Positions 7,936-21,743 of a stretch of DNA of 64,000 nt are shown piece after piece. The position numbers and the translations under genes are program-made. The stretch is from Propionibacteriaceae bacterium (GTDB taxonomy: Bacteria > Actinomycetota > Actinomycetes > Propionibacteriales > Propionibacteriaceae), in contig JAPUEI010000042.1 of assembly GCA_027492675.1 (NCBI GenBank), positions 1-64,000 on the forward strand, given 5' to 3'. The notes under the pieces were generated by a model. That model saw only the letters and a program-made list of their open reading frames with translations. It ran no database searches and was not told the origin of the DNA. Position 1 is the stretch's first letter; every line of letters begins with the position of its first letter.

Positions 7936-8891
7936 CACTTCTCCTGAGCGCCGAGTCGGACGCGTGGGTCGATGACTGCGTACAGCAGGTCGACGACGAG
8001 GTTGATCACGATGATGAAGAGCCCTGTGAACAGGACGATGCCCTGGACGAGCTGGTAGTCACGTCGCTGTACGGCCTCGAACAGCAGGCGGCCCATTCCC
8101 GGGAGCCCGAAGATGTTCTCGATGACCGCGCTGCCACTGAGTAGGCCGGCTGTTAGGAGACCCGCAACCGTGAGGATCTGTACTCCTGCGACACGGAGCA
8201 CGTAGACCATCGAGATCCGCCCCTCCTTGATCCCCTGGGAGCGTGCGGTCGTGACGTACGGCTCGCGAAGCACGTCGAGAACCGCGCCGCGCGTGATGCG
8301 GCTGACCCCACCGGCTTCCGCGAGCGCCAGGGCCAATATGGGCAGGCCGACGGTCCGGAGGTGCGGGGCCAGCCCCTTCGAGATGGGCACCCAGCCACCG
8401 ACCAGGAACAGCCGGAACTCGACGGCGAAGACCAGGATCAGCAGCAGGGCCATGACGAAGTTCGGCATCGAGATGCCGAGGATGCCAAGCGTCCTGGCGA
8501 CGCCACCGTCCAGACGATGTTGACGGAAGGCCGCCCAGCAGCCCAACCCGATGCCGAGGGCGAGTCCGAGGAGCAGCGCGCCCAGACTCACCTCCAACGT
8601 CACGGCGGCGGCGGGCGGGATCAGCTCGATGACGGGCTTGGCCAGAAAGTGGCTGTCCCCGAGCTGGAGAGTGGCGATCTGCCTACAGAACACCGTGAAC
8701 TGGTGCCACAGGCTGGCGTCCAGGCCCAGCTCGTGGCGCAGCGCCTCGACTTGCTCCGGCGTGGCCTGATCGCCCGCGAGGATGGAGGCGGGGTCTCCGG
8801 GGGCAAGACGAAGCATGAAGAAGACAAGTAGCAGGGGTACCGCGGCGGTTGGCAGCAGCAGAAGCAGGCGACGCCCGAGGTACGAGAGCAT
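7935..8891 (-). CDS. Dpp/Opp-type ABC transporter permease (DppB-like)
   Basis: A 318-residue integral membrane permease with an N-terminal membrane segment (residues 9-28), the DppB-type loop LRLAPGDPASILAGDQAT, and five further membrane segments in the second half. The cytoplasmic coupling loop is RSQGIKEGRI. The start at 8891 has GGAGG 6 nt upstream and overlaps the stop of the other permease as TGATG; the longer open frame upstream encodes only arginine/proline-rich shadow sequence. It forms the membrane channel with the DppC-like protein. Confidence 0.9.
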   Translation of the reverse strand: MLSYLGRRLLLLLPTAAVPLLLVFFMLRLAPGDPASILAGDQATPEQVEALRHELGLDASLWHQFTVFCRQIATLQLGDSHFLAKPVIELIPPAAAVTLEVSLGALLLGLALGIGLGCWAAFRQHRLDGGVARTLGILGISMPNFVMALLLILVFAVEFRLFLVGGWVPISKGLAPHLRTVGLPILALALAEAGGVSRITRGAVLDVLREPYVTTARSQGIKEGRISMVYVLRVAGVQILTVAGLLTAGLLSGSAVIENIFGLPGMGRLLFEAVQRRDYQLVQGIVLFTGLFIIVINLVVDLLYAVIDPRVRLGAQEK

Positions 8892-9769
8892 CAGTGGCCT
8901 CCGTGTCTGGGGTCGAGGGCGTCGCGGACCGTGTCGATCACCGTGTTGAGGGCCAGGATGGTGAGCACCAGTGCGGCGCCCGGGAAGGCCCACATCCAGG
9001 GGGCGACGCTCAGATAACCGCGGGAATCGGAGAGCTCGGCTCCCCAACTCGGTACGTCCGGTGGAAGCCCGGCGCCGATGAAACTCAACGCCGACTCAAC
9101 GAGGACTGACTGCGTGAAGACGATCGCTCCTTGGACGGTGATGGGAGTCAAGCAGTGGGGGAGCACGTACCTGGCGAAGATCCTGGTGTTTGAGGCGCCG
9201 ACCGCTTTGGCGGCGTCGATCATGGGCAATCCGCTCACGACCAGCGCGGCGCTGCGAACGACTCGGGTCATGCTCGGTCCGAAGACGATCACCAGGGCGA
9301 TGATCACGGTCGACAGGCCGCCGCCCATGATCGCCGTCAGGGCGAGCGCAAGCACGATGATGGGGAACGACATGATGCCGTCCACGATCCGCATCACGAC
9401 CATGTCGACCCAACGGAACATGCTGGCCAGGATCCCCAGGGTGGTGCCCACGGCAGCCGCGATGGCCGTGGTGATCAGACCGACAGTCAGAGACGCGCGT
9501 GCTCCGTACAAGGTGCGGGCGAGCATGTCCCTGCCGAAGTTGTCAGTGCCAAACCAGTGAGCAGACGACGGCCCCTTCAGACGTTGTCCTGCCGTGAAGG
9601 CATTCGGATCGAGCACGATCGGGGCGACGAGGGCGGTCACCACGAGGAGAACGAGGAACCCCACCGCCACCGCGGTCCCGGGGCGCCGGCGCAAGCGCCG
9701 CGCCAGCACCCCGAGCCACGTCGGCGCAGTGGCTGCGCCTGCGGATCCCTCGTGGATCTGGTCGATCAT
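8891..9769 (-). CDS. Dpp/Opp-type ABC transporter permease (DppC-like)
   Basis: A 292-residue permease with an N-terminal membrane segment (about 35-55) and the DppC signature HWFGTDNFGRDMLART followed by YGARASLTVGL near residues 71-97. The EAA-like loop AAKAVGASNTRIFARYVLP lies at about 190-208. Its ATG overlaps the solute-binding protein stop as ATGA. Together with the DppB-like protein it makes the transmembrane pathway of the importer. No change at key positions is evident. Confidence 0.91.
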   Translation of the reverse strand: MIDQIHEGSAGAATAPTWLGVLARRLRRRPGTAVAVGFLVLLVVTALVAPIVLDPNAFTAGQRLKGPSSAHWFGTDNFGRDMLARTLYGARASLTVGLITTAIAAAVGTTLGILASMFRWVDMVVMRIVDGIMSFPIIVLALALTAIMGGGLSTVIIALVIVFGPSMTRVVRSAALVVSGLPMIDAAKAVGASNTRIFARYVLPHCLTPITVQGAIVFTQSVLVESALSFIGAGLPPDVPSWGAELSDSRGYLSVAPWMWAFPGAALVLTILALNTVIDTVRDALDPRHGGH

Positions 9770-11343
9770 CCGAGCCAGACGTTGTAGAACGAGCCGGTGA
9801 ATTCATCCACGTGGCTCACGTGGACACTCTCACTCATGACGACCAGTGGCTTTGTGGTGCCGAACTTCAGGAAGGGAAGGTCCTGCCAGACGAGGGTCTG
9901 CAGCTTGTCCCAGGTCGCCTTCCGGTCCGACTGCGACGTCTGGCTGGCCAACTGGGCGAGCAGGGCGTCGCGCTCAGACGACTTCCATGTTCCGGGGAAG
10001 GTGCTCTGGAGGTACGGGAGCAGAACCGGGTCGGCATAGGTCGGGATCCCGGAGGAGAAGATGTCGAACTGGTCGGGGTGTGTTCTGCGGGCGATGATGG
10101 TCGCCTGGTCCACGACCTGAAGGTCGACGTTGAAGCCGGCCTTCTTCAACTGCTCCTGCGCGGGAAGGGACGGTGCATACCAGGTTGGGTCGTCCTTGGT
10201 AGTCAGCCACACGATCTTCTCGCCGTTGTAGCCGGCTTCGGTCATCAGCCGCTTGGACTTCGCAAGGTCCTGCTTGTTGTACACGTCGGTTCCGGCAGCC
10301 GACGTCCACTGCTTGTTGACCTCGGGGATGAAGCTACCGTCAACGGTGAAGGCAGAAGAGTCACCGAAACCGGCGGCCATGATCTCCTGCATATTGAGGG
10401 CGGCGAGGAACGCCTGGCGGAGCTTGACGTTGGCCATCGGGCCTTGGACCTTGTTGAACACGATCGTCGAACCCGAGGTGGCGCTGAGCATCTGGGCCTT
10501 CGCGGGGGACACGATCGACGGCTTCATGTCGAGCGGCACTGCGCCACCGATGTCGATTTGTCCGGTCTGCACGGCCTGGACCCGGGTCGAGGCCTCGGGA
10601 ATCGCCGTGAATGTCATCGTGTCCACGTAAGCGTTCTTGACCCCCGTCGCCCCGTCCGACTCACCCTCAGGTGTCTTGTAGCCGTCCCAGCGGGCCAAGG
10701 TGATCGTCTGGTCCTTTACATAGCTGGTGAGTTTGTACGGGCCGGTGCACACCAGGGTGTCAAGCGCCGAGGTGATGGGGCGCCCCTTCACCTGCGACGC
10801 CGGCATGATGTAGGCCGTGGTCAGCAGGGTGGGGACGATGGCGCTGGGCGACTTCAACGTGAGAACCACGGTCGAATCGTCGGGTGAGGACATGGACGCG
10901 GTCAGAGACTTCAAGATCGACCCGTTGCCGGGCGTATCCAGATACCGGGTGAGGCTGGCGACGACGTCGGCTGCTTTCAGGGGCTGACCGTCCTGGAACG
11001 ACACGCCGGAGCGCAGCGTGAAGGTGTAGGTCTTGTCGTTGTCGTACGCGGTCTTCTGCACCAGGACAGGCTTGATCTCGTACGAGGTGGAGACGTCAAA
11101 GAGGGGCTCGCAGACCTGTCGGGCGATCACCCAGTTTGCCTGGAGGGAGGTGGCGAAGGGGTCGATGACCGCCGGAATGCCAGCCAGCGAGATTCGCAAG
11201 TTGCCACCCTTCTTGGGGGTGGCGGCGCTGTCGACTGATGTACCAGCGTTGGTTGAGGAACATGCTGTGAGTCCCATGGTGACAGTCGCCACCGCGCACC
11301 CCAGTGCGAGGATCCCACGGATCGCTCTGTGCTTCATCGTCAT
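9766..11343 (-). CDS. ABC transporter solute-binding lipoprotein (family 5)
   Basis: A 525-residue extracellular solute-binding protein of the peptide/nickel-binding class. The N-terminus has a basic region, a hydrophobic core and the lipobox LTAC, so it should be lipid-anchored outside the membrane. Later segments such as YTFTLRSGVSFQDGQPLKAADV are the family 5 signature. I use the ATG at 11343, which has CAGGTG upstream; the ATG at 11337 has no ribosome site and earlier in-frame starts run into the promoter. It is the first gene of the 11-gene operon and lies divergent to the GntR regulator. Family 5 proteins bind peptides, glycosides, opines and other ligands, so the ligand is unknown. Confidence 0.9.
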   Translation of the reverse strand: MTMKHRAIRGILALGCAVATVTMGLTACSSTNAGTSVDSAATPKKGGNLRISLAGIPAVIDPFATSLQANWVIARQVCEPLFDVSTSYEIKPVLVQKTAYDNDKTYTFTLRSGVSFQDGQPLKAADVVASLTRYLDTPGNGSILKSLTASMSSPDDSTVVLTLKSPSAIVPTLLTTAYIMPASQVKGRPITSALDTLVCTGPYKLTSYVKDQTITLARWDGYKTPEGESDGATGVKNAYVDTMTFTAIPEASTRVQAVQTGQIDIGGAVPLDMKPSIVSPAKAQMLSATSGSTIVFNKVQGPMANVKLRQAFLAALNMQEIMAAGFGDSSAFTVDGSFIPEVNKQWTSAAGTDVYNKQDLAKSKRLMTEAGYNGEKIVWLTTKDDPTWYAPSLPAQEQLKKAGFNVDLQVVDQATIIARRTHPDQFDIFSSGIPTYADPVLLPYLQSTFPGTWKSSERDALLAQLASQTSQSDRKATWDKLQTLVWQDLPFLKFGTTKPLVVMSESVHVSHVDEFTGSFYNVWLG

Positions 11344-11375
11344 TGATTCACCTGTCCGTCGTTGGCCTGGTGCAG

Positions 11376-11422
11376 AGTGTATACACTGCATACCGTGCAT
11401 ACGGTAAGGTTCTAGGTATGGT
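11376..11422. promoter_or_regulatory. Divergent promoter with two palindromes (GntR operator candidates)
   Basis: Two palindromes lie between the divergent operon and regulator: AGTGTATACACT (11376-11387, perfect) and TACCGTGCATACGGTA (11391-11406, perfect 6-bp arms around 4 nt). Both have the TGTATAC/ATAC style of FadR-subfamily GntR operators. A -10 box TATGGT (11417-11422) faces the regulator gene. Binding by the neighbouring GntR protein would allow autoregulation and control of the catabolic operon. Confidence 0.6.
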
Positions 11423-11459
11423 TCGTCAAGGGGAGTTCGCACTGATCGGGAGGTGAGCC

Positions 11460-12098
11460 ATGGGCTCGCAAGAGATCGCAGATCAGCTGGCTGAGGACAT
11501 ACGCTCTGCGGTGTACCCGCCGGGCAGCCGCCTGGTGCAGCACGACATCGCCCAGCGGTTCCAGGTCAGCCGCATCCCAGTGCGAGAGGCACTTCAGAAC
11601 CTCGCGGCGCAAGGCCTGGTCGACTACAACCCCGGTGGTGGAGCGACCGTTCGCGACCGCAGCTCCCGCGAGATCCGCGAACTGTACGAACTCAGACTCC
11701 TACTGGAGCCTTCGTTGAGTCGACACATGCTCGGCGGAGTCACGCCGCGGCGTCTTCGAAGCCTGCAGACGCTCGCAGACGCGATGGACACGGACGTGGA
11801 ACTCGCGGCGTGGCGAGAACTCAACTTCGACTTCCACTGCGAGTTGAACGGACTCATCGAACGCCCCTACACCGAATCAGTCCTCCGGCTGCTACTCGCC
11901 GCGGTGCAGCCCTACTCGCTCGAGAACGTGGGAGCTCTCGGCGGGCGCGCACAAGCCACCCGAGAGCACCACTTGATGGTTCAGGCGCTCAAGAACCAGG
12001 ATGGCGACTCGCTGGCTGCCCTCATTCGACAGCACCTTGAGGACGCCATGGAGCGAGTGGCCACGGCTCACGACCAAGACAGCCCAGCCGTCCCCTGA
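11460..12098 (+). CDS. GntR family regulator with FCD ligand domain
   Basis: A 212-residue repressor-type regulator. The N-terminal winged helix-turn-helix spans about 5-70, with recognition region FQVSRIPVREALQNLAAQGLV; residues 75-200 form an all-helical FCD ligand domain with likely metal ligands in FDFHCELN and REHHLMVQAL. The ATG follows GGGAGGTGAG at good spacing. It is divergent from the transporter/esterase/AtuA operon, separated by about 115 bp holding two palindromes. It most likely represses that operon until a pathway acid or ester is present. Confidence 0.9.
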   Translation: MGSQEIADQLAEDIRSAVYPPGSRLVQHDIAQRFQVSRIPVREALQNLAAQGLVDYNPGGGATVRDRSSREIRELYELRLLLEPSLSRHMLGGVTPRRLRSLQTLADAMDTDVELAAWRELNFDFHCELNGLIERPYTESVLRLLLAAVQPYSLENVGALGGRAQATREHHLMVQALKNQDGDSLAALIRQHLEDAMERVATAHDQDSPAVP

Positions 12099-14092: not shown

Positions 14093-16297
14093 GTGGCTGG
14101 TTCGGGATTCTCTGGACTGACGATCAGGCGCTGGCGCATCGTTCAGCGGACGAGCGCCCTGGCGTTGGCCGTGGCGCTGGTGGCTGCTGGTTGGGTGGTC
14201 GTACCAGTGCCGGCTGTCGCCGCCTCCGGTCCTGTGGCGGGGGCCTTCGTGCCGCTGTCACCGTCCAGGGTGCTGGACTCGCGGGTCGGAATCGGCTACT
14301 CGGGCGCGGTCTCAGGCGGTGGGACGATCGGGTTGCAGATCACGGGCCGGAGCGGGGTACCCGCGAGCGGTGTGGCAGCGGTCGTGTTGAACACGACTGT
14401 CACCGATACCCGTACGGCTGGCTTCATCACGGTGTTTCCCTCGGATGCGGCCAGACCTGTGGCGTCGAACCTGGCCTTCGCCTCAGGTCAGACGGTGGCG
14501 AACCTGGTCACGGTGAAGGTCGGTGCTGACGGCAAGGTGAACCTGTTCAACGCCTCCAACCAGCCTGTCAGCCTGGTCGCCGACGTGGCCGGCTACTTCG
14601 TGGCGGGGACGCCGAGCGTGGATGGGGCGTTCGTGTCGTTGTCGCCATCACGAGTGTTGGACTCGCGGTTAGGCAATGGCTTCTCTGGTCCGGTGCAGGC
14701 GGGCGGGACGGTCCCGTTGCAGGTGACTGGTCGCGGTGGGGTGCCGACCTCTGGGGTTGCGGCGGTGGTGTTCAACACGACGGTCACGAATACCAGGGCC
14801 AGCGGATTCATCACGGTGTATCCGTCGGGGACGTCGATGCCGACCGCGTCGAACCTGAACTTCGTGGCGGGGCAGACCGTCCCGAACCTCGTGACGGTGA
14901 AGGTGGGCGCCGACGGCAAGGTCAATCTGACGAACAACTCAAGCGCCTCGGTTGATCTGGTCGCCGATGTGGCCGGCTACTACCTCGCAGGGACGCCGAG
15001 TGTGGACGGGGCCTTTGTGCCCGTGGACCCGGCGCGGTTGTTGGACTCGCGGGTCGGGAACGGCTTCTCCGGGCCTGTGCAGGCGGGTGGGACCGTCCGG
15101 TTGCAGGTGACTGGTCGGGGTGGGGTGCCGGCATCTGGTGTTTCGGCAGTCGTGTTGAACACGACGGTCACGAATACCAGGTCCAGTGGCTTCATCACGG
15201 TGTATCCGTCGGGGACGTCCATGCCGACCGCGTCGAACTTGAACTCCGTGCCGGGGCAGGCGATCCCGAACCTGGTCACGGTGAAACTAGGCAGTGATGG
15301 GAAGGTCAACCTCACCAACACCTCCGGTGGCACGGTCGACCTGGTCGCGGACGTTGCTGGCTACTACCTGATCGCGGTGCCTAGCCCTGGGGCGACGAAC
15401 GCCACTGTCAGTCCCGCAATCGGAACCACGCAGGGGGGCGACGTGGTGACGATCACCGGAACGAACCTCGCCGACGTCACGTCGGTCACCTTCGACGGCC
15501 TCGCCGGTTCGATGGTGACGCCGATCTCGGACACGCAAGTGTCGGTGACGACCCCCGTCCATGCATTGGGAGCCGTCGACGTGACGGTGACCACACCTCG
15601 AGGCACCACGACCAGCACGGGCGCGTTCACCTACGTCGCTCCGGGCACCAGTCCCGCGGACGGACAGCTGCACACCGGGATCATCTCGACGACATTCTGG
15701 GTCGGTGAGATCTTCGACGCGTCAGCTGCCGACGGCAGCCAGATGATCTCGACGTACGACGGGTCGTGGTACGCCCACTTCGGCGGCTGTGACGGCATCA
15801 GCGCGAGTGGCTCCTGCAAGACCGAGAAGCGCACGGCCGACAACGGCTGGTTCCCGACGTCCATGACGCCGAAGGAGAATCCCTTCTACCTCGACCTCCC
15901 GTACGACGACGTCAACGACCCCACGGGGTTCAAGAACCGGTGCGCGGTCATCCCGTGGGCCAACGACCCGGGATATGCCGGTCACTGCGCCGATCGGAAC
16001 TTCTCCTACATGAAGAACCGTTGGGTCAAGCTCATCGGACCCAACGGCAACGCGTGCTACGGCCAGATCGAGGACGCGGGTCCGGCGATCTACCACGACT
16101 CCGCGTACGTGTTCGGGTCGGCGCGACCCGCCAGCACCAAGTTCAACAACGCCGGCATGGATGTCTCCCCGGCGCTCAACGGCTGCCTCGGATTCTCAGA
16201 GCTCGACGGCCAGTCGGACAAGGTGAGCTGGCAGTTCGTCAGTTCCCCACCCGCAGGCCCCTGGACCAGGGTCGTGACCACGCGCCAGGTCAGCTGA
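14093..16297 (+). CDS. Secreted protein: three 128-residue repeats, IPT/TIG domain, C-terminal barrel-like domain
   Basis: A 734-residue exported protein. A signal peptide (about 1-44) is followed by three repeats, each opening with S/A-R-V/L-L-D-S-R and ending D-V-A-G-Y-Y/F; the L-D-S-R motif falls at residues 62, 190 and 318, an exact 128-residue period. Residues about 430-515 are an IPT/TIG immunoglobulin-like domain. The C-terminal 210 residues contain cysteines and a segment CYGQIEDAGP followed by GMDVSPALNGCLGF that recalls the double-psi beta-barrel of RlpA/expansin proteins. The GTG start has GGGGGG upstream. Likely a cell-wall or polysaccharide-binding protein; enzymatic action is not shown. 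Confidence 0.75.
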   Translation: MAGSGFSGLTIRRWRIVQRTSALALAVALVAAGWVVVPVPAVAASGPVAGAFVPLSPSRVLDSRVGIGYSGAVSGGGTIGLQITGRSGVPASGVAAVVLNTTVTDTRTAGFITVFPSDAARPVASNLAFASGQTVANLVTVKVGADGKVNLFNASNQPVSLVADVAGYFVAGTPSVDGAFVSLSPSRVLDSRLGNGFSGPVQAGGTVPLQVTGRGGVPTSGVAAVVFNTTVTNTRASGFITVYPSGTSMPTASNLNFVAGQTVPNLVTVKVGADGKVNLTNNSSASVDLVADVAGYYLAGTPSVDGAFVPVDPARLLDSRVGNGFSGPVQAGGTVRLQVTGRGGVPASGVSAVVLNTTVTNTRSSGFITVYPSGTSMPTASNLNSVPGQAIPNLVTVKLGSDGKVNLTNTSGGTVDLVADVAGYYLIAVPSPGATNATVSPAIGTTQGGDVVTITGTNLADVTSVTFDGLAGSMVTPISDTQVSVTTPVHALGAVDVTVTTPRGTTTSTGAFTYVAPGTSPADGQLHTGIISTTFWVGEIFDASAADGSQMISTYDGSWYAHFGGCDGISASGSCKTEKRTADNGWFPTSMTPKENPFYLDLPYDDVNDPTGFKNRCAVIPWANDPGYAGHCADRNFSYMKNRWVKLIGPNGNACYGQIEDAGPAIYHDSAYVFGSARPASTKFNNAGMDVSPALNGCLGFSELDGQSDKVSWQFVSSPPAGPWTRVVTTRQVS

Positions 16298-16824: not shown

Positions 16825-19800
16825 GTGAGGAACGTGATGAGGGGAAGATCCAGATCTGTGGGGGTGTCGAAGCGGAGAGCTCCGCGACCCAGGACCCGGG
16901 CGGGGGTTTCGCTGCTGATGAGTCTGGGATTGCTTGCGGGGTCGCTCGTCGTCGGGGTTGCAGCGCCTATCGCACAGGCCGTGGCGGGGAACCCTGGAGT
17001 GCCGGGTACGCCGACACCGATCTACGTGGAGGATTTCGAGAACGCTCCCGGGCAGAACTTGGGAGTCCGTGATTACGTCTCCGCTAGCGGCGAATCCTAC
17101 TCTGCCTCAGACTTCTGGTCGAGTCGTTCTGAATGCAACGGCTTCGTGACGAGCATGGCAACGCCGACGAACAGCACTGATTGCACTGTTTATGACTTTG
17201 GCAGCGAAGCGCGTCGGCTGTCATTCCAGAACACGGTGAGGCAGATGGTGAGCGCGCTTGCCGTCCTCAACGGGCAGGATCCGACGACCAACTCAGGCCT
17301 TGCCGAGCTCGCCAACTCCAAGGCGCCCAGCGGTGAGACGCTCTTCCAGACCGCTGGTCGGGTGCCGCTCAGCGCTGCCAATCGATTCGTGGCCTTCTCT
17401 GTGAATGCCGCAGCGACAACGTGTGGGCGTGCGCAGGCCAACCTCGCGTTCTTCGCAGTCGATGACAGCGGGCAGGAGATTCCTCTGACCACGTCGCCGT
17501 TGAACCCGTGCACGCAGGGACGGGTGTTGGCTCCCAACACGACGATCAACACCGGTCCGGTCTATGGCGGCTCCCTGTACTCCCAGGGGTCGATTCTCCT
17601 GAAGGGCTCGTCGCTGGGTTTGATCCTGCGGAATTCGACGGCTTCGACCGACGGCAACGGAAATGACTTTGCGATCGATGACATCAAGATCCTTGATGTG
17701 ACGCCGCAGCTCGACAAGTCATTCAGCCCGGCATCGGTTCCTGTTGGTGGCGTGTCCACGCTTACGCTGACGGTGACCAACACTTCAGACCTTGCTGAGA
17801 AGCGAGGATGGCAGTTCACAGATACTCTCCCAGAAGGTCTGGTAGTCGCGGCCACGCCAAACCTTGGCGGAACGTGCCACGCGGATACCTCTGCCCAGGC
17901 AGGAACGTCGGTGATCGACGTGACGAACGGCGTTCTTGCTGCGAAGGAAACGTCCTGCACGATCACTGTTGATGTGACTAGTAGCAGTCCTCGGGGTGGG
18001 AATACCTCCACCATTGGTTACCAGAACTGTGCGGCAAACATCTCGAACCAAGTAGGTATCAACAATCCCAATTGCGCCACGGTGAACTTCTTCTCTGAGC
18101 CCAAGCTCGAGATCGAGAAGACGTCCGATGCAGGGCAGAATGCTCGGGTGGGCCAGACGGTCACCTACGAGGTGCGACTCACGAACACCGGGTCCGCTGA
18201 CTTCACCAATGGGCTTCCCGCAGCTTTCTCGGACGACCTCTCGCAGGTGCTCGATGATGCGAACTGGAACGACGACGCTGCCGTGACGTTCTCGGCCGGC
18301 AGCATTGGGGTGCCGCCGACGCTCGCCGGCACCACCCTGAAGTGGTCGGGGCCGCTTCGCGAAAGCGAGACGGCAACCATCAGGTACTCCGTGACTCTCG
18401 CGGACACCGGGGACGGGACCGTGCTCAACACCGCGTGCGTACCGGAAGCCATCGCGGCGGGAGGTGGGAACTGCGCGTCGACGAGGACCCTCATTCCTCT
18501 TGTCAGCGTCACGAAGACCGTTGATCCGACATCTGGGTCGAGAGTCGAGGCCGGGCAGGTGCTCAGGTACACGCTGACTTTCGCCAACGTCGGTGCCGCG
18601 GATGGGGTCATCGCCTACACCGATCGCCTTTTCGACGTGCTTGACGACGGCGACGTCGCTGACGGACCGGTCGTCTCGGATGCGGCGGTGACGGCTGTGC
18701 GGGATGGTGACCACATCAACATCAACGGCCTGCTTACCCCTGGAAGTAGCGTGACGGTGGCCTACTCAGTAGTCGTGCGACCCGATGGGGAGCGCGGCAA
18801 CAATCTCGTCGCGAACGTGCTCGCAGATAGTCCTACTCCGAACCCCTCCTGCGGAGATGCGGGCGTCTACTGCACGGAGAACCCGATCGGCGAACTTGAG
18901 ACGTGGAAGACGGTCGATCCGGCATCCGGTACTTCCGTGCGTGCTGACGAGACCGCGACCTATACGCTCCACTTCGCGAACTCCGGAAAGGCCCCGATCT
19001 CGGTTGCTCGAGATGATGTTCTGAGCGGCGTGCTCGATGACGCCGACATCACTGAGAATCCGGTCGCCTCGTCGGAAGCGCTCTCTGTTTCGGTCATCGC
19101 TGACGGCCGCTTCGCTGTTGCGGGAGAGCTCGCCGCGGGTCAGACGGTGACCATCTCCTACACGGTCAAGGTCAGGGCGGACGGGAACAGGGGCGACGAT
19201 CAGCTCAGCAACTTCCTCGTACCGCAAGGCCAGGAGCCTCCAGCTACGTGCGATCCAGCATCGAGCGAACGCCCGAACTGCACCGTGAATCCCGTGTCAG
19301 ATGTCCTCGTTTCGAAGACCTCCGACCCTGAGTCCGGTGCCACCGTGAAGCCCGGGCAGGTCGTGAACTACACGCTCACCTTCACGAACCGGTCGAAGAA
19401 TGCCGAATCGGCCGCCGCACCGCTGGACTACACCGACCACATGCGTGACGTGCTCGATGACGCGCTACTGACGGGAGGGCCGTCGAGCTCGGGCGACCGG
19501 CTTCTCGCTCGTTTCAGTGGAGACGCCATCCGAATCACCGGACTGCTCGCCCCAGGCGAGACCGTCGTGGTGACCTATTCGGTGCAGGTCAAGTCGTACG
19601 GGGAGCAGGGAGATCACATCCTCGGGAATGTGGTCGCGATGACCGGCGACGCGCCGATCTGCGTTCCGGGATCGGGAATGTGCACCACGCACGACGTGCC
19701 GCCTCCAACGTCAGCCCTCGCGAGCACAGGTGCAAGCGCCCTACTGGGGCCCTGGACAGGCCTCGCCGGGTTGGGTCTGATCGTGACAGGCATGTTGCTG

Positions 19801-19857
19801 TTGCTGCGCCGAAAGCGCGTCCATCCTGATCGCGCTAGTGAGTCGTTGACTCAGTAG
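16825..19857 (+). CDS. LASTG-anchored surface protein with DUF11-like repeats
   Basis: A 1010-residue cell-surface protein. It has a long signal peptide (about 1-54), an N-terminal domain with several cysteines to about residue 290, then DUF11-type beta-sandwich domains. Four domains carry the motif V-L-D-D at residues 475, 605, 736 and 876, each about 130-140 residues apart and each followed by a conserved S/G-x-x-V-T-V/I-x-Y-S/T-V strand. The C-terminus is LASTG (965-969), a hydrophobic helix and RRKR, the signal for a class E sortase. The GTG start at 16825 is chosen from signal-peptide position. Codon use is visibly richer in A/T at third positions than neighbours, suggesting transfer. 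Probably an adhesin or stalk protein. Confidence 0.82.
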   Translation: MRNVMRGRSRSVGVSKRRAPRPRTRAGVSLLMSLGLLAGSLVVGVAAPIAQAVAGNPGVPGTPTPIYVEDFENAPGQNLGVRDYVSASGESYSASDFWSSRSECNGFVTSMATPTNSTDCTVYDFGSEARRLSFQNTVRQMVSALAVLNGQDPTTNSGLAELANSKAPSGETLFQTAGRVPLSAANRFVAFSVNAAATTCGRAQANLAFFAVDDSGQEIPLTTSPLNPCTQGRVLAPNTTINTGPVYGGSLYSQGSILLKGSSLGLILRNSTASTDGNGNDFAIDDIKILDVTPQLDKSFSPASVPVGGVSTLTLTVTNTSDLAEKRGWQFTDTLPEGLVVAATPNLGGTCHADTSAQAGTSVIDVTNGVLAAKETSCTITVDVTSSSPRGGNTSTIGYQNCAANISNQVGINNPNCATVNFFSEPKLEIEKTSDAGQNARVGQTVTYEVRLTNTGSADFTNGLPAAFSDDLSQVLDDANWNDDAAVTFSAGSIGVPPTLAGTTLKWSGPLRESETATIRYSVTLADTGDGTVLNTACVPEAIAAGGGNCASTRTLIPLVSVTKTVDPTSGSRVEAGQVLRYTLTFANVGAADGVIAYTDRLFDVLDDGDVADGPVVSDAAVTAVRDGDHININGLLTPGSSVTVAYSVVVRPDGERGNNLVANVLADSPTPNPSCGDAGVYCTENPIGELETWKTVDPASGTSVRADETATYTLHFANSGKAPISVARDDVLSGVLDDADITENPVASSEALSVSVIADGRFAVAGELAAGQTVTISYTVKVRADGNRGDDQLSNFLVPQGQEPPATCDPASSERPNCTVNPVSDVLVSKTSDPESGATVKPGQVVNYTLTFTNRSKNAESAAAPLDYTDHMRDVLDDALLTGGPSSSGDRLLARFSGDAIRITGLLAPGETVVVTYSVQVKSYGEQGDHILGNVVAMTGDAPICVPGSGMCTTHDVPPPTSALASTGASALLGPWTGLAGLGLIVTGMLLLLRRKRVHPDRASESLTQ

Positions 19858-19864
19858 CCGGGCT

Positions 19865-19899
19865 GGGTGACGCCCGCTGCCCCCTCGCGGGCGTCACCC
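19865..19899 (+). terminator. Terminator of the surface-protein gene
   Basis: GGGTGACGCCCGC (19865-19877) pairs perfectly over 13 bp with GCGGGCGTCACCC (19887-19899), starting 8 nt after the stop codon. Confidence 0.8.
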
Positions 19900-20174
19900 C
19901 CACCCGCTGCGTGCCTCTCACGTGGGTATCGATCGGGCAGGCTTCAGGCCACCCCAACGCCCGTCTGCTGCGGTGGGCTGGCGCCGTAGCATGTGATCCT
20001 TGGGATCTTGACCGCCGAGATCGGCAGGTGGTCTGCAGGAGGCGGCGCTGGCGCCGGCACGGGTGTGCTCGCCACAACGGTCGCGGCGTCGGCCGCCGAC
20101 CAGCCGGTCAGGGGTCGGCGATTCGTCTCTACTGTGAGCGTCACAGACGGTGGCGCGTAGATGGGGTGACAGGT
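19900..20174. other. Spacer before the LuxR-type gene
   Basis: Together with the terminator this makes a 317-bp gap. A 55-codon open frame (GTG 19993 to TAG 20160) has acceptable codons but no recognisable product and no good ribosome site. The longer frame reading into the LuxR gene is arginine-rich shadow sequence. I see no certain gene. Confidence 0.35.
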
Positions 20175-21743
20175 ATGGGATCGCGAAGAGCCGATCTTGC
20201 CGAGCAACTGTTCCGCGACAAGTGGTACGGGATCGACAAGCGCGATGGACAACAGATCATCGATGCCGCTCAGGACCTGAGCGATGAAGAGCTTCTGAAC
20301 CGTCCCGTTCTCGTCACGGCAGCGATCGTTGCCCTCCAGCTCCATGCGAATGCCGACTCCCGCGACCACGCGGTGGGCCTGGAACGATTCGCGAATCTGA
20401 TGATCCAGAGTCCCGAACGCGCGATGGGAGCGACGCTCACCGGGCAGCCACTGCGGCATTGGAGAATCATGGAGATGATCGCTCGAAGGTGGAGGCGGGA
20501 GTACGACGCCGCGCTCGCGTTGTCAGATCTTCTGGAGGAGCGCACTGCGACCACCTCTCTTCGTGAATCACTGTTCCCGGCACCCGTTGACGGTCTTTGG
20601 CCAGGTCATGTGACGCTGCAGCGCGGTGTCACCGAGGCGCTCGGTGGCAGAGTCAGCGCGGCAATGCGCAGCTTCACCCGCGCCTACGCAGAAGGTGGCG
20701 AGCCACCGTACGGGCACTTCGCCAAGGCGAACGCGGCCGCGAACGCCGCGATGCTCAGTGCGATTGAAGGAAACACGCAATCCGCTGAACTGTGGGCCGA
20801 GAGATCACGGACCCTTGGGCCCGTTCCCACGCAGATTCATCACCTCACCTTCGTCGGCCGCGACATCGCGGAAGCACAGATCGCGATGGACCGAGACGAG
20901 CTCGAGCACGCGGGAGAGATCCTGGCGAGAACGGCGGTGGCAGGGGAGACCATCGAGCTCTGGCCGTTCCTGCTCCACGTGACAGTCGCTCTCGACCTCG
21001 CCAACGACCGGGTGGTGCCCGCTTTCGAGCGGTTGAAGAGTGCCGGCTTCGAACGGAACCGGATCACCGCGATTGACCGAGTTGCGGATCATCTCGTGTT
21101 CCGTTCCTACTTGGATGTGCTCCTCGCGGCCGGTGAGGGCGGCATCGTGCTGCGTCTCGCAGATGACCTCGGCCATCCTCTGCGCGCACTCGTTCCCGTC
21201 GCCAGAACCCATCTACTTGCGGGCGACTACCCCCGCGCCTCGCGGGTCGCGGCGCATGCGCTGAGGCGGGCAGAGCTCTCGTTGCGCGACATGTGGGAAG
21301 CGACCTGGGTGCACGCTCTCGCAGAGATCGGGGCGGGCAACGTCGAGGCCGCGACGCGCCTGTACTCCTTGGTCCGTCAAGGTCAACCTGTGGGCCTGAC
21401 TGCGCTGGTCAACCGATCGCCTCGCGCGCTTGTCGAGCAGCTGTACGCCACGGTTGGCGAAGCACCGCCCGAGGGCACGAACCACGCTGGGCACATCAAT
21501 ATCTCGATGCCAAGCCTCACTCCCAGGGAGCGTCAGATCCTCCAGTTCATCGCTGAGGGGATCTCCCCCCGCGAGATCGCCCTTCTCGAAGTGACCTCGG
21601 AGCACACGGTGCGAACGCACATCAAGCACATCTACCGAAAGCTCGGCGCGACGACTCGCCGAGAGGCAGTCGTTGCGGCAGAACAGCTCGGACTTCTGCG
21701 CTGGTTCCATCTCGATGGTGACAACCACGCACTCACCACGTGA
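20175..21743 (+). CDS. LuxR-family transcriptional regulator
   Basis: A 522-residue regulator with a C-terminal LuxR helix-turn-helix at about 450-510, including LTPRERQILQFIAEG, EHTVRTHIKHIYRKLG and RREAVVAAEQLGLL. The first 440 residues are helical and repeat-like, resembling the TPR-type sensor part of large LuxR regulators, but no P-loop of the LAL/MalT ATPases is seen. The ATG at 20175 is chosen because residues encoded upstream are unlike the family. It follows the surface-protein gene after a terminator, so it has its own transcript; control of the neighbouring surface genes is a guess. Third-position A/T is also raised, as in the preceding gene. Confidence 0.8.
   Translation: MGSRRADLAEQLFRDKWYGIDKRDGQQIIDAAQDLSDEELLNRPVLVTAAIVALQLHANADSRDHAVGLERFANLMIQSPERAMGATLTGQPLRHWRIMEMIARRWRREYDAALALSDLLEERTATTSLRESLFPAPVDGLWPGHVTLQRGVTEALGGRVSAAMRSFTRAYAEGGEPPYGHFAKANAAANAAMLSAIEGNTQSAELWAERSRTLGPVPTQIHHLTFVGRDIAEAQIAMDRDELEHAGEILARTAVAGETIELWPFLLHVTVALDLANDRVVPAFERLKSAGFERNRITAIDRVADHLVFRSYLDVLLAAGEGGIVLRLADDLGHPLRALVPVARTHLLAGDYPRASRVAAHALRRAELSLRDMWEATWVHALAEIGAGNVEAATRLYSLVRQGQPVGLTALVNRSPRALVEQLYATVGEAPPEGTNHAGHINISMPSLTPRERQILQFIAEGISPREIALLEVTSEHTVRTHIKHIYRKLGATTRREAVVAAEQLGLLRWFHLDGDNHALTT

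Follow-up and report, generated by a model that had tools for sequence, protein, structure and literature searches.

A probable wall-anchored fibrillar adhesin with predicted isopeptide stalk domains and a neighboring LuxR-type gene in a Propionibacteriaceae genome

Within the window (the whole stretch of DNA that was analysed, 64 kb long), the open reading frame at 16825-19857 of the forward strand encoded a surface protein of 1010 aa, followed on the same strand by a gene for a LuxR-type regulator. The features of both genes and of the region between them are collected in Table 1. The true start of the surface gene may be ATG 16837 and not GTG 16825. An earlier note on this DNA had described a sortase-anchored repeat protein with four V-L-D-D motifs and a LASTG sorting signal; every one of these positions was recovered in the translation of the surface ORF, with a chance expectation for V-L-D-D of 0.037 given the composition of the protein, and the description itself was borne out by four DUF7927 matches together with the anchor signal. 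At 14093-16297 (+), the window also encoded a protein that looks secreted, with three LDSR-type repeats of 128 residues each, a TIG domain, and a C-terminal portion that matched no Pfam family.

Table 1. Features of the surface gene, the intergenic region and the LuxR-type gene (positions in the window, residues of the surface protein)
Feature	Positions	Strand	Basis
Putative Sec signal peptide, residues 1-52	16825..16980	+	Arg-rich n-region, hydrophobic core, AQA/VAG cleavage site; translation read by eye
N-terminal domain, residues 63-292, CBM4-like jelly-roll model	17011..17700	+	Predicted model; without Pfam family
DUF7933, residues 294-413; predicted triad K298-D333-N401	17704..18063	+	Pfam; Z 11.2 to 9IFR
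Repeat 1, DUF7927/DUF11, residues 428-539; predicted triad K432-D470-N535; V-L-D-D starting at 475	18106..18441	+	Pfam, alignment
Repeat 2, DUF7927, residues 560-688; predicted triad K564-D600-N664; V-L-D-D starting at 605	18502..18888	+	Alignment
Repeat 3, DUF7927, residues 690-824; predicted triad K695-D731-N796; V-L-D-D starting at 736	18892..19296	+	Alignment, model
Repeat 4, DUF7927, residues 828-958; predicted triad K831-D871-N935; V-L-D-D starting at 876	19306..19698	+	Alignment
Sorting signal: LASTG (965-969), hydrophobic segment, basic tail	19717..19854	+	Motif scan
13-bp perfect hairpin, 9-nt loop, between surface gene and LuxR gene, without T run	19865..19899	+	
LuxR-type regulator (522 aa if started at ATG 20175); N-terminal region outside any Pfam family, GerE HTH	20175..21743	+	

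The C terminus of the surface protein carried LASTG, then a run of hydrophobic residues and a tail with Arg/Lys, and the surface gene was the only ORF of at least 180 aa in the window to pass the sortase-anchor test. Class E sortases process LAXTG signals, as stated in an excerpt of PMC5148588. The class E sortase gene for which the earlier note had proposed to look elsewhere in the genome was found, and it was the single sortase gene found in the draft (NF033747, 196.4 bits against a cut-off of 160). Motif and enzyme together suggested that the class E sortase anchors the surface protein. The published class E substrates share with it the LASTG motif, the hydrophobic segment, the basic tail, and a class E sortase in the genome; the LAXTG substrates named in the PMC5148588 excerpt differ in serving aerial hyphae formation, whereas the window protein is an adhesin-like stalk.

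The long ORF of the LuxR gene was 19911-21743 (+). The best relatives of its product aligned from residue 79-104 of this long ORF, in which ATG 20175 is residue 89, and the stretch before that ATG had a non-coding codon-position pattern (GC2 0.648); for both reasons, the gene probably starts near ATG 20175. The hairpin between the two genes is a possible transcription end, and it was not flagged by the terminator scan. A promoter scan stayed at chance level. Transcription of both genes as one operon was considered and rejected, because of the hairpin and the probable LuxR start.

Both genes stood out in their third codon positions. The GC3 of the surface gene was 0.737, and that of the LuxR gene was 0.725 when counted from 19911 or 0.736 when counted from ATG 20175, the two lowest of the 44 window genes. 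Genes of the window and of the genome baseline were called by an amino-acid score blind to GC3, and the baseline so obtained (178 genes on 20 other stretches) had a mean of 0.892 and an sd of 0.053, with 5 of its 178 genes as low as the surface gene and 4 as low as the LuxR gene. Corrected for amino-acid content, the deficits were -0.136 (surface gene) and -0.140 (LuxR gene). The higher third-position A/T content that had been claimed for the pair was thus confirmed, as both values lay well under the genome mean. Two other ways of choosing genes were set aside. Calling by length only gave a mean of 0.829, with 33 and 29 out of 148 genes reaching values as low as the two, and was replaced by the amino-acid score because it seemed to be spoilt by antisense frames, many of its rows looking antisense; when GC3 itself guided the choice, three doubtful ORFs had lower values than the LuxR gene and four had lower values than the surface gene.

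A foreign origin of the surface and LuxR genes is likely, judging from their composition, and their joint acquisition, as proposed in the earlier note, is plausible because the low, foreign-looking GC3 is common to both. It is less probable, though still to be reckoned with, that low GC3 is a trait of the gene class or of the local region. The GC3s of the genes at 1-12 kb averaged 0.806 (11 genes) compared with 0.896 at 22-64 kb (26 genes), and the nearest relative of the surface gene (G065, 54% identity) had a GC3 of 0.785. However, related surface genes at 13 other loci had a GC3 of 0.899-0.950, so a high third-position AT content is not a general trait of the gene class, and the surface protein had a match in none of the six other genomes of the genus, which are drafts of 69-98% completeness. 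In the family as a whole, matches, mostly partial, occurred in at least 53 of 198 genomes, its own included, when four candidates per genome were scored; relatives in named genomes were found in Luteimicrobium and Sediminihabitans, which together with the class E sortase points to an actinobacterium as the source. No plasmid matched in a search at near DNA identity.

Between its N-terminal domain and sorting signal, the protein consisted of five tandem domains. The four DUF7927 stretches scored 423 bits in Pfam against a curated cut-off of 31 (E 2.4e-128), preceded by DUF7933 at residues 294-413 (E 3.9e-21). Pfam matches to DUF11 and DUF7507 overlapped the DUF7927 repeats, and NCBIfam reported TIGR01451 (DUF11 repeats) and, at 294-421, TIGR04226 (an isopeptide-forming domain). 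DUF7927 was present in three of the seven genomes of the genus, its own included. In its own genome, two further genes had DUF7927 matches barely above the cut-off (L006 on G000:C2; L007-L009 on G000:C73), one of them a 3173-aa open frame.

DUF7927 (PF25549) and DUF7933 (PF25564) are already listed as predicted Lys-Asp-Asn isopeptide families, CnaA-like in fold, in an excerpt of the survey by Costa et al. 2025 (PMC12617251), with Lys 125/Asp 161/Asn 225 and Lys 973/Asp 1008/Asn 1068 as their respective example triads. The DUF7927 spacing given there (Table 1 of the survey) is +36 from Lys to Asp and +100 from Lys to Asn. In the surface protein, Lys, Asp and Asn stood at the published positions in all five stalk domains, with spacings of +36 to +40 and +100 to +104 in the four repeats; in the DUF7933 triad, the Asn lay further on because of an insertion. 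The protein therefore shared with the surveyed families the family match itself, the triad spacing, the tandem placement in a stalk, and the fold, the bond here being predicted.

Conservation was examined with a profile of the four repeats, which yielded 308 domains, 248 of them distinct and 165 spanning both ends, the latter remaining after removal of 60 copies and 83 partial rows. Among these 165 related domains, many of which come from the same proteins and are not independent, the Lys was kept in 162, the Asp in 162, the Asn (in either of two adjacent columns) in 151, and the full triad in 150. The corresponding counts in the 57-row alignment of the structural model were 56, 57 and 57. Two Cys followed the triad Asn in each repeat of the surface protein, and the same rows had two Cys at a spacing of 4-16 in 43 cases, none in 9, one in 3, and two at another spacing in 2, a pattern that would suit disulfides.

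The model of repeat 3, built with 56 relatives, had a pLDDT of 97.3 and placed the Lys on strand one, the Asp close to where strand three ends, and the Asn in strand 106-113. This predicted model fitted a CnaA-like Ig fold, and both Foldseek (5.1e-07) and VIA (Z 12.0, 113 residues, 2.4 A) ranked 9IFR first, a solved CLIPPER (DUF11) isopeptide domain that also matched the DUF7933 part of a second model, of residues 40-424. The likeness was one of fold, with 16% identity to repeat 3 and 14% to the DUF7933 part, and 9IFR comes from a Gram-negative adhesin. Further VIA matches of repeat 3 were pilins, antigen I/II domains, and 2wza, a structure titled with two isopeptide bonds; integrin Ig domains also matched (Z 10.4), and these are not known to carry such a bond. 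When solved structures were searched with the whole protein and with the repeat profile, only chance-level rows were returned (best E for the repeat profile 0.088), and no solved member of DUF7927 or DUF7933 was found; a single repeat would for that reason be well suited to testing what the survey predicts.

The stalk domains are likely to have an isopeptide role. We regard as improbable a stalk that keeps the isopeptide fold and lacks the bond in some or all of its domains, which would make the protein a plain spacer: the bond is absent in some DUF11 domains according to the survey excerpt (PMC12617251), and of the nine DUF7933 relatives, two (L032 and L023) had lost Lys and Asp, but all three residues were kept in five of five stalk domains of the surface protein.

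An isopeptide bond, which the earlier note had suggested as one possible role of the conserved acidic pair, is likely for the domains, but the V-L-D-D pair is not its acid. All four V-L-D-D domains matched DUF7927, so the motif is a mark of that family. The pair was ruled out as the isopeptide acid by the published family position, at which the triad Asp precedes the V of the motif by five residues. Over the 165 domains, the first acidic residue of the motif was Asp in 111, the second in 92, and both in 87; the triad is favored because it was complete in 150. In the model of repeat 3, V-L-D-D extends over a short helix (47-50) and the turn that leads into the following strand, and its role is most likely structural; this may hold in particular for its first Asp, well kept among the closest repeats (53 of 57 model rows, against 49 for the second). 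It is highly improbable that the pair itself binds calcium within or between repeats, a metal and not a covalent bond rigidifying the domains: that well-kept first Asp does lie in a turn before a strand, but the pair is far less often complete than the triad, inspection by eye revealed no classical calcium motif, and the annotation of DUF7927 in the survey excerpt (PMC12617251) is isopeptide. The correction is a clean one, in that the eye-catching V-L-D-D marks DUF7927 and differs from the predicted cross-linking site.

The N-terminal domain, residues 63-292, had no Pfam match. The model of residues 40-424, built with nine relatives, had a pLDDT of 81.2, its tip-part blocks being less sure at 59 to 94. 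In VIA, the tip matched CBM4-2 of a Rhodothermus xylanase (2y6j), 155 of its 167 residues aligning at 2.8 A with Z 12.9, which indicated the same jelly-roll fold. Other jelly rolls scored near CBM4-2, namely meprin (12.0) and gingipain adhesin and Eph receptor domains (11.4), and a CBM4 fold alone is no proof of sugar binding. The two domains also differ, with 16% identity and with the tip placed on a wall-anchored stalk and CBM4-2 on an enzyme, and ligand binding by the tip is putative. On the predicted fold, residues 63-292 are likely a ligand-binding tip, the ligand probably being a glycan.

Fibrillar adhesins are recognised by an adhesion domain, repeated stalk domains and a surface anchor in one long protein; of these, the stalk domains and the anchor were present, along with a tip whose adhesion role is putative. 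The surface protein is most probably an ordinary fibrillar adhesin built of known kinds of parts. The Sec signal peptide would export it, and the genome's class E sortase would cleave LASTG and join the protein to the cell wall. At the free end, the CBM4-like jelly roll would bind its ligand, carried on five Ig-like stalk domains, of which one is DUF7933 and four are DUF7927. Within each of these, an intramolecular isopeptide bond is predicted to link Lys and Asn, catalysed by the nearby Asp, and five such covalent locks would make the stalk resistant to force and proteases. The neighboring LuxR protein may control the surface gene, as its repeated neighborhood suggests. We consider this joint reading well supported overall, with a sortase-anchored fibrillar adhesin, a likely ligand-binding tip, a five-domain isopeptide stalk, a LuxR protein possibly in control, and two genes that look acquired.

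The neighborhood of the LuxR gene was compared among relatives. Relatives of the tip domain occurred in 23 of the 391 genomes of the order, its own included, and 23 loci were read (22 of the 28 places outside its own genome and one from the family-wide search). A LuxR gene lay within 2.5 kb at nine of these loci (L051, L052, L053, L103, L104, L106, L107, L113 and L114), compared with 0.8 loci expected from per-genome LuxR counts, and nine was reached in none of 2 million draws, in a test that is rough since the counting model does not agree with the LuxR profile, related species lack independence, and contig ends cut some loci. Two further loci, from named genomes (L010 and L011), had no LuxR gene within 2.5 kb. 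The LuxR gene was divergent from the surface gene in L051-L053, L107 and L114, downstream of it in the window, L104 and L106, and upstream on the same strand in L113. In L103, the surface ORF was overlapped at its end by the LuxR frame, so this locus may be broken.

Two of these loci had structures of their own. At L106:7603-11658 (+), the same tip and a DUF7933/DUF7507 stalk ended in a C-terminal sortase domain (PF04203, residues 1239-1350) and not in a sorting signal, with the LuxR gene following. At L104, an in-frame stop split the relative into two ORFs, one with the tip and one with the repeats (8342-9904 and 9908-12070, +), and three consecutive LuxR-type genes came after them.

From the regulator side, a profile of the LuxR N-terminal region (A4, eight rows) found 37 places in 33 of the 391 genomes. 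An LPxTG/LAxTG gene lay within 1 kb at 6 of the 30 places outside the profile (L073, L127, L132, L133, L143 and L104), of which L073 nearly duplicates a profile seed and L104 was already known from the adhesin side; three more had one at 1.3 to 3.8 kb (L148, L126 and L128). The other 24 of these 30 profile-independent places had no such gene within 1 kb. Among the first 20 (L123-L142), three had an anchor gene within 1 kb compared with 0.25 expected (P 0.002, on a baseline of two genes only). Pilin-like SpaA-domain genes stood beside the LuxR gene in L072, a seed that also has a sortase gene, and in L127, a DUF7507 stalk in L132, and a DUF5979 protein in L133. At L072:8099-15414, a SpaA-type pilin operon with a sortase was divergent from the LuxR gene, and LPLTG genes of like make also lay beside LuxR genes in L073 and L127.

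The N-terminal region of the window LuxR was 16-18% identical to those of the adhesin-adjacent LuxRs and 30-31% identical to those of the L069 and L071 LuxRs from another genus, which had no LPxTG/LAxTG gene beside them. A single LuxR family for all adhesin neighbors was accordingly rejected, the window LuxR being nearer to other LuxRs. A functional LuxR-adhesin pair is a fair hypothesis and not a finding, because of the 24 places without an anchor gene and because of this nearness to L069 and L071. Tentatively, and with slightly less than even confidence, we suggest for the whole order that LuxRs with a large non-Pfam N-terminal region pair repeatedly with sortase-anchored isopeptide adhesins or pili and control their display, that the pairing survives changes of gene order and LuxR type, and that the pair moves as a unit, as in the window.

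A search of a limited body of literature found nothing linking LuxR regulators to sortase-anchored adhesins, DUF11 or sortase-dependent pili. The parts of the protein are known, and the LuxR pairing is the new and less expected lead. If functional, it would be a clue to how these bacteria switch their sortase-anchored adhesins and pili.
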